The translations under genes and the position numbers were made by a program. Positions 10,177-15,404 of a stretch of DNA of 43,636 bases are shown one piece after another. Within the stretch, counting starts at the first letter, position 1. Every line of letters begins with the position of its first letter. Location: NCBI GenBank assembly GCA_018882975.1, contig VEQZ01000008.1:1-43636 (forward strand), written 5' to 3'. The stretch comes from Rhodocyclaceae bacterium. GTDB taxonomy: Bacteria > Pseudomonadota > Gammaproteobacteria > Burkholderiales > UBA3065. The notes beneath the pieces are model-generated. The model ran no database searches, had not been told where the DNA came from, and was given only the letters and a program-made list of their open reading frames with translations.

Positions 10177-11814
10177 TCAGGTGTGGTATGCGCCGCCATC
10201 GCGCGTGTCACGCACCAGCAGCAGGCCGATCACAAAGGTCATCATGGCGATGATGATCGGGTACCAGAGGCCCTTGTAGATGTCGCCGGTGGCCGCCACG
10301 ATGGCGAACGAGGTGGCCGGCAGGAAGCCGCCGAACCAGCCGTTGCCGATGTGGTACGGCAGGCTCATCGAGGTGTAGCGGATGCGCGCCGGGAACAGCT
10401 CCACCAGCAGCGCCGCGATCGGCCCGTAGACCATCGTCACGTAGAACACCATGACGAACAGGATGGCGATGATCAGCGGTTTGTTCATGGTGGCCGGGTC
10501 GGCCTTGTCCGGATAGCCGGCGGCCTTGAGTGCCGCGGCCATCTCGGCTTTGAAGCGGTCGGTCTCGGCCTTGGCGTCCTCAGCCTTGCCATCGTAGGAC
10601 TTGACCACCGTCTCGCCGACCTTGACCTCGGCAGTGGCCCCATAAGGTAGCGGCTGGTTCTGGTAGCTGATGCCGCCCTTGGCGAGAAACTCCTTGGCCA
10701 CATCGCAACTGCTGGTGAACTTGGCGGTGCCGGTCGGGTTGAACTGCAGCGAGCACTGACCCGGGTCGGAGAACACGGTGACCGGGCTCTTGGTTTGCGC
10801 GTCGGCCAGCGCCGGGTTGGCGGCGTGCATCAGCGCCCCGAACAGCGGGAAGTAGGTCAGCGCAGCGATCAGGCAGCCGCTGAGGATGATGTGTTTGCGG
10901 CCGATCTTGTCGGAGAGCCAACCGAAGAAAACGAAGAACGGCGTGGCCAGGATCAGCGCGGTGGCGACCATGATGTTGGCAGTCGGGCTGTCGACCTTGG
11001 CCATCTTCTCGAGGAAGAACAGTGCGTAGAACTGGCCCGTGTACCAGACCACGCCTTGGCCGGCGGCGGCGCCGAACAGTGCGATCAGCACCACTTTGAG
11101 GTTGCGCCATTCGCCGAAGGACTCGCCGAGCGGGTTCTTGGAGCCCTTGCCCTCGGCCTTCATGCGCTGGAACACGGGCGACTCGGCCAGTTGCAGGCGG
11201 ATCCACAGCGAGACCAGCAGCAGCAGCACCGAGACCAGATAGGGCACGCGCCAGCCCCAATCCTTGAAGGCGTCCTCGCCCAGATAGGTCCGCGTACCCA
11301 AGATCACCAGCAGGGCGAGCATCAGGCCGCCGGTGGCGGTGGTCTGGATCCAGCTGGTGTAAAGGCCGCGGCGACCGTCGGGCGCGTGCTCCGCCACGTA
11401 AGTCGCGGCGCCACCGTATTCACCGCCCAGCGCCAAGCCCTGCAGCAGGCGCAGGCTGATGAGGATGATCGGCGCAGCGATGCCGATGCTGTGGTAACTC
11501 GGCAGCAGGCCGACCAGAAAGGTCGATGCGCCCATGATCAGGATGGTGATGAGGAAGGTGTGCTTGCGCCCGACCAAGTCACCCAGCCGACCGAACACGA
11601 TGGCGCCGAAGGGCCGCACGGCAAAGCCGGCGGCAAACGCCAGCAGCGTGAAGATGGTCTTGGTCGATGCATCCAGCGGCGTGAAGAACTGGTCGGCGAT
11701 GATCAGCGCCATGACGCCGAACAGGTAGAAGTCGTACCACTCGAAGACGGTTCCCAGTGCCGAGGCGAAGATGACCTTCTTCTCTTCGCCGCTCATTGGC
11801 CGATGTTGCGTCAT
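10177..11814 (-). CDS. MHS-family MFS transporter (ProP-like) with a large periplasmic insert
   Basis: A 545-residue major facilitator of the metabolite:H+ symporter type. The N-terminus shows SALGTVFEWYDFYLFG and AVRPFGAIVFGRLGD (MFS motif between helices 2 and 3), followed by RLLQGLALGGEYGGA. A repeat of the motif, GWLSDKIGRKH, starts the second half. Between it and the last four helices lies a hydrophilic insert of about 110 residues (roughly 329-445) containing two cysteines (C354, C370). MHS proteins carry dicarboxylates, citrate, betaine, proline and similar compounds; the substrate here is not evident. A good GGAGG site precedes the ATG. The gene stands alone, with its own terminator. 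Confidence 0.87.
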   Translation of the reverse strand: MTQHRPMSGEEKKVIFASALGTVFEWYDFYLFGVMALIIADQFFTPLDASTKTIFTLLAFAAGFAVRPFGAIVFGRLGDLVGRKHTFLITILIMGASTFLVGLLPSYHSIGIAAPIILISLRLLQGLALGGEYGGAATYVAEHAPDGRRGLYTSWIQTTATGGLMLALLVILGTRTYLGEDAFKDWGWRVPYLVSVLLLLVSLWIRLQLAESPVFQRMKAEGKGSKNPLGESFGEWRNLKVVLIALFGAAAGQGVVWYTGQFYALFFLEKMAKVDSPTANIMVATALILATPFFVFFGWLSDKIGRKHIILSGCLIAALTYFPLFGALMHAANPALADAQTKSPVTVFSDPGQCSLQFNPTGTAKFTSSCDVAKEFLAKGGISYQNQPLPYGATAEVKVGETVVKSYDGKAEDAKAETDRFKAEMAAALKAAGYPDKADPATMNKPLIIAILFVMVFYVTMVYGPIAALLVELFPARIRYTSMSLPYHIGNGWFGGFLPATSFAIVAATGDIYKGLWYPIIIAMMTFVIGLLLVRDTRDGGAYHT

Positions 11815-12090: not shown

Positions 12091-13182
12091 TCAGACGTTA
12101 AACAGAAAATTCATCACGTCGCCGTCTTTGACCACGTAGTCCTTGCCTTCGGCGCGCATCTTGCCGGCCTCCTTGGCGCCGTGTTCGCCGCCGTGCGCGA
12201 CAAAATCCTCAAACCCGATGGTCTGGGCGCGGATGAAGCCTTTCTCGAAGTCGGTGTGGATGACGCCGGCGGCCTGCGGCGCGGTGTCGCCCTTGTGGAT
12301 GGTCCACGCGCGCACTTCCTTGACCCCGGCAGTGAAGTAGGTCTGCAGGCCGAGCAGGTCATAGCCGGCGCGGATCAGGCGGTTGAGGCCCGGCTCCTCG
12401 AGCCCCAGATCGGCCAGAAAGGCCAGCCTGTCCTCGTCCTCGAGGTCGGCCAATTCGGCCTCGAGCTTGGCGCACAGGGCGACCACCGGCGCGCCCTCTT
12501 TGGCGGCGAACTCACGCAGCCGGTCGAGAAAAGGGTTGTTCTCGAAGCCGCTCTCGTCGACATTGCCGACGTACATGGCCGGCTTGATGGTGAGCAGGCA
12601 CAGCGGCTTGACCAATACCTTCTCGTCGTCGGACAGCGCCAGCGTACGCGCGGGGCGGCCTTCGTTGAGGTGCGGCACCAGTTTCTCCAGCACCGCGACC
12701 AGCTTCTGCGCTTCCTTGTCGCCCGACTTGGCTTTCTTGCCGTCGCGGGCGATGGCTTTTTCGACACCGGCCAGATCGGCCAACGCCAGTTCGGTGACGA
12801 TGGTCTCGATGTCGGCGATCGGGTCGACGCGGCCGTTGACGTGCACCACGTTGGCGTCCTCGAAGCAACGCACCACATTCACGATGGCGTCAGTCTCGCG
12901 GATGTTGGCGAGGAACTGGTTGCCGAGACCCTCACCCTTGCTCGCACCCGCCACCAGACCGGCGATGTCGACGAACTCGACGATGGCCGGCTGGATCTTC
13001 TGCGGCTTGACGATGGCTGCCAGCTTGGCCAGTCGCGTGTCCGGCACCTCGACGATGCCGACATTCGGCTCGATGGTGCAGAACGGGTAGTTTTCGGCGG
13101 CGATGCCGGCCTTGGTCAGGGCGTTGAAGAGGGTCGACTTGCCGACGTTGGGCAGGCCGACGATGCCGCATTGGAGGCTCAT
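12091..13182 (-). CDS. ychF: Redox-regulated ribosome-binding ATPase YchF
   Basis: A 363-residue OBG-family P-loop protein. It has G1 [14 protein letters not shown] near the N-terminus, a switch region with [20 protein letters not shown], an ATP-specifying NVDE-type motif, and a C-terminal TGS-like domain ending [15 protein letters not shown]. YchF binds ATP rather than GTP and associates with ribosomes; it is linked to oxidative-stress response. In related genomes it follows pth directly on the same strand. Here about 1.6 kb of lower-GC sequence with two genes separates them. The start ATG at 13182 is the only one compatible with the conserved N-terminus. Confidence 0.96.
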
Positions 13183-13289
13183 AGTTAATGATTTCGGTCG
13201 GAAGTGTAAGTTTCAGGCAGCGCAAGCCAGTTGCAAGATGCGATTCAATGCATTGAGCCATCTGAAAAGGCCCCCAGGTAAACTTCTAT

Positions 13290-13949
13290 TCAAAAGCTTC
13301 CGGGCGAGCTGCCAGTGCGTATGGGAAAGGCGTGTATAGACAAATGGATCTGACTGCCGCTGCCTGATCGGAACGACCATTCTTGACCGCTGCGCTTCAG
13401 AGGCCTGAAGCGCCCCTCAATACTATTTGGAATTGCCATCGGAAACGAAATGCGTAGGCGGCGAACGACCGCCTGCATGGCGGGCAAGGCGTGGTACTGC
13501 TTCCAATGTTCTTTCATGCATGACATGGTATCGAATAAAAATCCTGTGAGGTCTCTTGATGCCAGTTCGGCGGTGAAGCCCTCGTGAAATTGACTCGAGC
13601 AAACGACCCCATGGCTTTCAGGGATTTGGGACAGGCCTTCGGAATAATCGTCAGTCGTCACGAATAGCGTTGATGATATTCCATGAGCCTCGACTTTTGC
13701 CTTAGCAAGAACCAAAGATGGATCGACAAACCGGAGTGCCTCTGCATCACCTACAAATACTTGAGTTCTTATTGGTTTCAAAAAATCAACTGTTATTGAA
13801 AAATCCAGAACATTTGGGGAAATCAGACGGCACAAAAACCCCGCAATGTCCGAGGAATTGACGTAGTTTCTCTCTCCTCTCAGAGCAAGGGGGAAGCTAT
13901 TCGCCGATGAATTGTTTATCAAAAAATTCTTCAATTGCTTTTGCTTCAA
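13290..13949 (-). CDS. Hypothetical protein of the low-GC islet, possible tandem hotdog fold
   Basis: About 219 residues that I do not recognise. Two stretches share a similar layout: a helix-like segment, then a beta strand with a Pro-turn (ITVDFLKPI near residue 52, RLRISFPMAIP near 165), then further strands. This resembles the helix plus five-strand pattern of hotdog proteins (thioesterases, acyl dehydratases), so a double-hotdog fold is possible, but this is inference from pattern only. The ATG at 13949 makes it overlap the hydrolase gene by 53 nt; the first 15-20 residues are the alternate frame of the hydrolase C-terminus, so a later start is possible. The two genes are probably co-transcribed. 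Confidence 0.55.
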   Translation of the reverse strand: MKQKQLKNFLINNSSANSFPLALRGERNYVNSSDIAGFLCRLISPNVLDFSITVDFLKPIRTQVFVGDAEALRFVDPSLVLAKAKVEAHGISSTLFVTTDDYSEGLSQIPESHGVVCSSQFHEGFTAELASRDLTGFLFDTMSCMKEHWKQYHALPAMQAVVRRLRISFPMAIPNSIEGRFRPLKRSGQEWSFRSGSGSQIHLSIHAFPIRTGSSPGSF

Positions 13950-14757
13950 TATTGCAGGAAAGGGACAGCGGGTGCCCGGCCATCGTAAAAACTTTTTCCT
14001 CGGAGTTCGGCAGGGAAGCGCCCATCTGTTCCGCGAAAAGCTTCCTCAGCCTGCTTTGTTCACCCCACATCGCCAGCGTTGGATTGGGCAGGCTCTCTTT
14101 TCCCGCAAGTATGTTGAATTCCTTAAGACTTTCGGGGTTCACGGGGCGCAAAGCGGGTTGCAATGCACCGTTGCGAGGTCGGAGTCGTCCGCGGATGAAT
14201 CGTCGTTTGGTCTCATTGTCGTCAAAGACAAGCGCTCTGAGAGGACTGTTGTCCCAAGCCATCTCAGCCGACTCCAGATTCAAAAAGGCTTTGCCGAGAA
14301 AGACTTGACATTCCTTTATGTAGGACCGCGTTTCTTCATCGAAGCCGAATGCCGGCTCCGCCAGGGCAAGGGGGATCGTTTTGAATTTTTCGTCGTCCCG
14401 GTTCTGGTACAGGCAGGCCAAACTCGCTATAGCCCCGCCCGAGGAGGTGAGCAGGCCAATCCGGAGTGTGGATTTCTTCAGAATGGCGCTCAATACCTTC
14501 AACTTCACGGCGAACGGCGGGACAGTGGAATTGGGTTCCGAATAGCCGCTTCCGGGAGCATCAAACGCAATCACCTTGTATGGCACGGCGCGCGCAGGGT
14601 GGCTGAGGCGTTCGGCCAGGAACGTGAAATCGGCAGAATTCCCGCCTGCCCCATGTAGGCACACGACCTGAGCAGATGGCTCAGGGGGAGACCAAGAACG
14701 ATAAAAAACTCGCTTGAGGTCTTTCGATGTATTGATAAAGCCTTCAGTGTACGTCAT
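13897..14757 (-). CDS. Alpha/beta-hydrolase of the low-GC islet
   Basis: A 286-residue alpha/beta-hydrolase fold protein. It has an oxyanion-type HGAGGN at residues 35-40, FDAPGSGYS at 65-73, and a nucleophile elbow TSSGG with Ser106 as probable nucleophile (Thr replaces the usual first Gly). A C-terminal His262 lies in AGHPLS. At the usual catalytic-acid position after strand 7 the motif is WGEQS (231-235), where relatives have an Asp at the last place; Glu233 or another acid may substitute. No signal peptide is present, so it is probably cytoplasmic. It lies between pth and an unrecognised gene in lower-GC DNA. The substrate is unknown; an ester, thioester or lactone is likely from the fold. 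Confidence 0.8.
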   Translation of the reverse strand: MTYTEGFINTSKDLKRVFYRSWSPPEPSAQVVCLHGAGGNSADFTFLAERLSHPARAVPYKVIAFDAPGSGYSEPNSTVPPFAVKLKVLSAILKKSTLRIGLLTSSGGAIASLACLYQNRDDEKFKTIPLALAEPAFGFDEETRSYIKECQVFLGKAFLNLESAEMAWDNSPLRALVFDDNETKRRFIRGRLRPRNGALQPALRPVNPESLKEFNILAGKESLPNPTLAMWGEQSRLRKLFAEQMGASLPNSEEKVFTMAGHPLSLSCNIEAKAIEEFFDKQFIGE

Positions 14758-14822
14758 CAGGCGCTGTCCAGTGTCTAAGGCAACCGAAGGATAACCCAGG
14801 GCTTGCCCGGATATCGCGTAGG

Positions 14823-15404
14823 TCAGCCTGTTGGCGAGTGGAGCTTGTTCATCGCGAGCTCAAAGTCGCCGCGTGCCATGTCCGGCCAGACGTCGAGCGC
14901 GCGGCGCATGGCGAGTTCTATGCCGTCTTCCTCCGCGCAGCTCGGGCGGTCGAGCACGAAGCCGGTCACCTTGGCTCGATCACCCGGGTGGCCGATACCG
15001 AGGCGCAGCCGCCAGTAGTCCTTGCCGAGTTGCACGTCGATGTCCTTGAGCCCGTTGTGTCCGCCGTGGCCGCCACCGACTTTAAGCCGTGCGGTGCCGG
15101 GGGGCAGGTCGAGTTCGTCGTGCACCACCAGCACCTCGCCCGGTGCGATCTTGTAGAAGCGCGCGAGCGCGCCTACGGCCTGGCCGCTGCGGTTCATGAA
15201 GGTGTCGGGCTTGAGCAGCCAGAGTTCGCCGGCCGGACCACGCACCTTGGCGACCAGACCGAAGAACTTGCCCTCGTTCGACCACTGGCCGCCCAGTTCC
15301 GCCGCCAGCTGGTCGACCCACCAGAAGCCGGCGTTGTGGCGGGTGGCAGCGTATTCGCGACCAGGGTTGCCGAGGCCGGCGACGAGGCGGAGCGGGGTGG
15401 GCAT
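14823..15404 (-). CDS. pth: Peptidyl-tRNA hydrolase
   Basis: A 193-residue Pth that cleaves peptidyl-tRNAs released prematurely from ribosomes. It shows [19 protein letters not shown] with the catalytic His in RHNAG, the [10 protein letters not shown] segment, and HDELDLPPG followed by [11 protein letters not shown]. Length matches the family. It lies downstream of rplY on the same strand; a terminator hairpin in the gap suggests partly independent expression. Its usual downstream neighbour ychF is displaced by the lower-GC islet. Confidence 0.96.

Follow-up and report, generated by a model that had tools for sequence, protein, structure and literature searches.

Two overlapping genes lie between pth and ychF in this DNA, and they raise the question of where they came from and whether their products act together on one compound. 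The initial annotation had read the upstream gene as an alpha/beta-hydrolase and its partner, which we call gene 2, as a possible double-hotdog protein. We analysed the pair in the context of the whole 43,636-nt stretch (the window); the features concerned are listed in Table 1. The pair is a real, foreign two-gene insert that joins a protein of known fold, with an apparently unusual active-site layout, to an orphan, and its products probably handle an acyl ester or thioester.

Table 1. Features of the pth-ychF locus (positions in the window)
Feature	Position	Strand	Description	Basis
ychF (GTPase), downstream flank	12091..13182	-		Pfam YchF-GTPase_C, MMR_HSR1
Insert between ychF and pth	~13183..14830		Right boundary approximate, within divergent pth end	
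Orphan gene 2	13290..13949	-	At most 219 aa	ORF; no family
Gene overlap with three TTG starts	13897..13949	-	In-frame TTG at 13949, 13934, 13922	
Alpha/beta-hydrolase gene	13897..14757	-	286 aa, ATG start	ORF + Pfam
pth (peptidyl-tRNA hydrolase), upstream flank	14823..15404	-		Pfam Pept_tRNA_hydro

The gene pair is a species-specific horizontal acquisition inserted between pth and ychF. In each of the four congeners (genome completeness 79-98%), pth lies immediately upstream of ychF and both the hydrolase gene and gene 2 are missing; the pth stop and the ychF start are joined as ATGA in three of them, and a gap of ~60 nt separates the two genes in the fourth. The GC content of the pair is 51.9% versus a mean of 67.7% outside it, where no 1.5-kb stretch falls under 61.6%. 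Likewise, third-position GC is 0.50 and 0.60 in the pair against a range of 0.81-0.91 across the eight neighbouring genes measured, and the pair is enriched in rare codons. The adjacency of pth and ychF in the four congeners, together with the difference in GC content (52% versus 68%), therefore identifies the pair as acquired. The hydrolase gene follows pth on the common strand after 65 nt, and the wider gene order is lolB-ispE-tRNA-Gln-prs-rplY-pth-ychF, in which lolB, ispE and prs were assigned by reading ORF translations and tRNA-Gln by a separate tRNA result. We found no convincing flanking repeats at the ends of the insert, and no tRNA or RNA family at the insertion site. The insertion cost ychF both the ATGA junction with pth and the ribosome-binding site of AAGGA type that lie before it in the congeners (window 13183-13200), and the window shows no clear replacement site ahead of ychF. 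Further along, at 10177-11814 on the minus strand, an MFS/sugar-transporter-family protein (Pfam Sugar_tr, MFS_1) carries about 100 additional residues of soluble appearance between transmembrane segments.

Both ORFs were recovered as initially annotated, on the minus strand and overlapping by up to 53 nt. The hydrolase stop codon occupies 13897-13899, and no ATG or GTG start fits gene 2; starts at TTG 13949, 13934 and 13922 would give products of 219, 214 and 210 aa and overlaps of 53, 38 and 26 nt, respectively, and a strong Shine-Dalgarno sequence precedes none of the three. Since base-shuffling the 611-nt gene 2 stretch 2000 times never yielded an open frame of at least 200 codons in any of the six frames, gene 2 is a real frame rather than a chance one. 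Neither frame is interrupted, and the two proteins are small and devoid of membrane segments. From the overlap, translational coupling of the two genes is plausible. Two overlapping frames on the same strand might also be produced by a frameshift or an assembly error in one gene, but we regard this as scarcely credible: the hydrolase is full-length, with the catalytic His and the C-terminal helix in place, and it terminates where its relatives L105, L107, L108 and L109 also do; on the alignment with them we rejected a split gene.

The hydrolase matches Pfam Abhydrolase_6 (E-value 6e-11, 43.9 bits, cut-off 26.3) and Abhydrolase_1 (5.5e-10, 39.8 bits, cut-off 25.8), which bears out its initial assignment. 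The nearest NCBIfam models are MenH, AcoC and BioH, none of which reaches its equivalog cut-off (MenH, 32.8 versus 208.55 bits needed; BioH, 21.2 versus 206.95), and we therefore rejected the hydrolase as an equivalog of any of the three. The nucleophile Ser105 in LLTSSGGA and the base His262 in MAGHPLS are both where expected: the elbow RIGLLT-SSGGAIA aligns to RIGLLGLSMGGAIA of 7q4h minus one residue, and AGHP aligns to 1imj and to the GHA of L105 and L107-L109. The turn after beta7, however, reads G-E-Q-S235-R236 where relatives have D; the G-D-Q-D of 1imj and the G-R-E-D of 5jzb align with its G-E-Q-S235, and Ser235/Arg236 at the canonical acid position excludes a group A enzyme, whose acid follows beta7. 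In other alpha/beta-hydrolases the catalytic acid sits at the end of beta6 instead, an established alternative ("position IV", group B) (PMC7034887). LALAEPAF of the hydrolase aligns to LVLWAPAF of 7q4h, which would put Glu134, directly before Pro135, at the end of beta6 and at the group B position. Because the beta7 acid is missing and Glu134 aligns at a known alternative site, we propose Ser105-Glu134-His262 as the likely triad, whose acid would then belong to the end of beta6.

Gene 2 shows no meaningful match in Pfam (up to E 10), NCBIfam, PHROGs, PADLOC or PDB sequences. Because HMMER filters can miss remote members, the lack of a Pfam match counts against the described families and not against a hotdog fold. 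Read by eye, the protein consists of two halves, each running strand-helix-strands: RNYVN / SSD34IAGFLCRLI / VLDFSITVDFLKPI / TQVFVGDAEALRF / LVLAKAKVEAHG in the first, and FTAELA / SRD133LTGFLFDTMSCMKEHWKQY / MQAVVRRLRISF / SIEGRFRPLK / SQIHLSIHAFPI in the second. The motif S-x-D-[IL]-x-G-F-L heads both proposed central helices, 99 residues apart, as S-S-D34-I-A-G-F-L and S-R-D133-L-T-G-F-L. A loosened form of it occurred twice in none of 20,000 shuffles, the motif having been picked after being seen, and the alignment of one half against the other is not significant (shuffles equal the score in a fraction of 0.128). In its strand/turn pattern, DFSITVDFLKPI...TQVFVGDAEAL...LVLAKAKVEAHG, gene 2 resembles PaaI-type proteins such as L019 and L021, and the hotdog-like strand pattern includes an FLKP motif. 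Among the three hotdog alignments built for hhalign (4HBT_3, 4HBT_2 and Acyl-ACP_TE), 4HBT_3 gave gene 2 a score of 19.7, against a 95th percentile of 16.1 and a maximum of 20.1 in 100 shuffles, whereas the other two did no better with gene 2 than with shuffled sequence; since three families were tried, the 4HBT_3 score is suggestive at most.

The structure prediction and fold search that the initial annotation had proposed as a check were run and leave its hotdog assignment where it stood. The AlphaFold2 single-sequence model of gene 2 had a pLDDT of 39.9 (43.0 when trimmed), too low for reading a fold; in the C half, both low-confidence models show a helix followed by four strands. In the fold searches, the first model returned one FabZ row (Z 2.0, rmsd 3.7, 63 aligned) and the second no hotdog row, so no hotdog cluster appeared, and searches with models of pLDDT 40-43 are uninformative in either direction. 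The suggestion of a double hotdog thus keeps the strand pattern, the repeated motif and the borderline 4HBT_3 score in its favour, and has no library match. On these sequence features we hold it to be somewhat more likely than not that gene 2 encodes a double-hotdog protein. Side-by-side, same-strand genes for PaaI-type single-hotdog proteins at near-equal spacing occur in four genomes of the same order (G024:C343 1385-2114, L018/L033; G007:C1 3128948-3129657, L021/L034; G016:C1 1176378-1177095, L023/L037; G030:C1 300861-301588, L019), and these may be a heteromeric, unfused counterpart of a double hotdog.

We found no second copy of gene 2 in the 100 nearest, 369 class and 398 phylum genomes, samples that partly overlap. 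Six weak matches turned up in the 369 class genomes and were all rejected: L003-L006 lie in or against unrelated genes (response regulator, short-chain dehydrogenases, type I restriction methylase), and L007-L008 are interrupted by stops. In the phylum sample, a further weak match, L014 (G470:C10:74016-74213), covers 66 residues of the C-terminal part with 36% identity (E 8e-4) in an open frame of 112 aa. Scanning an 85k-species set with 8-mer peptide patterns found no gene 2, and the 15 matches there to Y-V-N-[ST]-[ST]-D-x-x-G-F-L are all chance, 10 of them being one aspartokinase-like protein by our reading. No relatives of gene 2 were seen in IMG/VR, plasmids or phages; for some of the IMG/VR searches the patterns were the query varied by conservative substitutions rather than real homologues. 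As pattern scans catch close relatives only, more remote ones may have escaped them. For the hydrolase, too, no close relative turned up: L105, the nearest in the genomes searched, shares 28% identity (E 2e-9). We saw the two genes adjacent nowhere else in the genome samples, pattern scans, IMG/VR, plasmids or phages. The initial annotation had also proposed checking for conserved pairing in other genomes; as no second copy of either gene turned up in these searches, a joint function is argued from adjacency in this one genome. Nothing speaks for a phage origin of the pair beyond a weak match of the hydrolase to a generic esterase PHROG, and a defence system was set aside as PADLOC returned no match.

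We propose that a two-gene cassette was acquired horizontally in one species and inserted between pth and ychF in their transcriptional orientation. Gene 1 encodes a serine hydrolase of the alpha/beta fold with, most likely, a Ser105-Glu134-His262 triad, the acid having moved to the end of beta6, and gene 2 would be translated by re-initiation or coupling from a TTG inside gene 1. The product of gene 2 would most likely be a highly diverged double hotdog of the thioesterase/hydratase kind, in which Asp34 and Asp133 are the candidates for catalysis. A single acyl compound would most likely be the target of both proteins: its thioester with CoA or a carrier protein would be the substrate of the hotdog protein, the hydrolase would cleave this acyl group's ester, lactone or thioester, and the two would serve catabolism or detoxification as an accessory step. 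The idea of a shared substrate draws on the family of the hydrolase, on the probable hotdog fold and on the adjacency of the genes. Of the whole proposal, the ORFs, the hydrolase's family, the insertion and the foreign composition are shown, and the triad, the hotdog fold, the coupling and the shared substrate are inferred. Taken as a whole chain, from acquired hydrolase and double-hotdog cassette to a single acyl compound, the proposal is tentative and somewhat short of an even chance; in the stronger form of a new, very divergent double-hotdog family that with a beta6-acid hydrolase makes up a mobile pair making or removing an undescribed acyl molecule, it is improbable. A hotdog fold for gene 2 would mean a hotdog protein that every current profile library misses and, in the pair, a compact unit of acyl-ester chemistry moving between genomes; otherwise, the hydrolase travels with an orphan partner as one of many acquired cargo pairs. 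In either case the insertion site is known and the congeners provide natural controls.

Several other readings bear on this proposal. Gene 2 may be an orphan of some other or unknown fold that partners the hydrolase as an accessory, an inhibitor or an immunity-like protein and might, for instance, regulate or neutralise it, which we consider almost as likely as the proposal itself. The empty library searches and the failure of the low-confidence models to match any fold agree with it, but the hotdog-like strands with FLKP, the twice-occurring S-x-D-x-x-G-F-L and the borderline 4HBT_3 score speak against it. The pair may also be recent cargo that has no selected function in its host and is heading for loss. 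It is confined to one species and missing from the four congeners, a search for a sigma-70-like promoter found none, and the start codons and ribosome-binding sites are weak; however, two intact frames, one of them far longer than chance, and a position on the pth-ychF strand argue against decay, so we think this unlikely. As the pair shares the orientation of pth and ychF, it could be expressed by read-through.

AfsA and AvrD carry hotdog-like domains, and a pair with gene 2 in an AfsA or AvrD-family role might make or release a diffusible acyl molecule of the butenolide or butyrolactone type. In favour of this, AvrD/MmyD-type butenolide synthases have been found in acquired islands (PMC11195616), but gene 2 lacks any Pfam match, the window genes examined include no regulator, receptor, ketosynthase or carrier protein, and the insert consists of two genes only, which makes the idea very unlikely.

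Compared with known systems, the putative double-hotdog protein resembles double-hotdog thioesterases and dehydratases (TesB, Acyl-ACP thioesterase, polyketide-synthase dehydratase) in approximate length, in its two proposed helix-plus-strands halves and in the Asp that opens both of the proposed helices, although it has no detectable sequence membership among them and lacks the HGG and H-V-N-N motifs of the sampled hotdog proteins. PROSITE PS01328 is the active-site motif of the YbgC / 4-hydroxybenzoyl-CoA thioesterase class I (PMC516016). R27-x6-D34-x2-G37 of gene 2 fits part of it, with R at -7, the Asp and Gly at +3, as do 5.6% of shuffles; the remaining positions disagree, gene 2 having Ser for T/C before the Asp, Asn for [IV] after R, and G-F-L for G-[IV]-V. 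The hydrolase has the common features of its fold, namely, the nucleophile elbow, the position of the His and an HGAGG oxyanion loop, and differs from enzymes of the MenH/AcoC/BioH type in having no acid after beta7. The beta6-end acid proposed for it is found in haloalkane dehalogenases of the LinB/DhaA type and in ZenA and ZHD101. Zearalenone lactonases combine this acid with a second Ser after the nucleophile (PMC10913051), which S105-S106 of the hydrolase matches; the acid of ZenA is Asp, whereas that of the hydrolase would be Glu. Neither ZenA nor ZHD101 is named among the PDB sequence matches of the hydrolase to E 10, and its likeness to the zearalenone lactonases would be one of working parts, short of demonstrated kinship.
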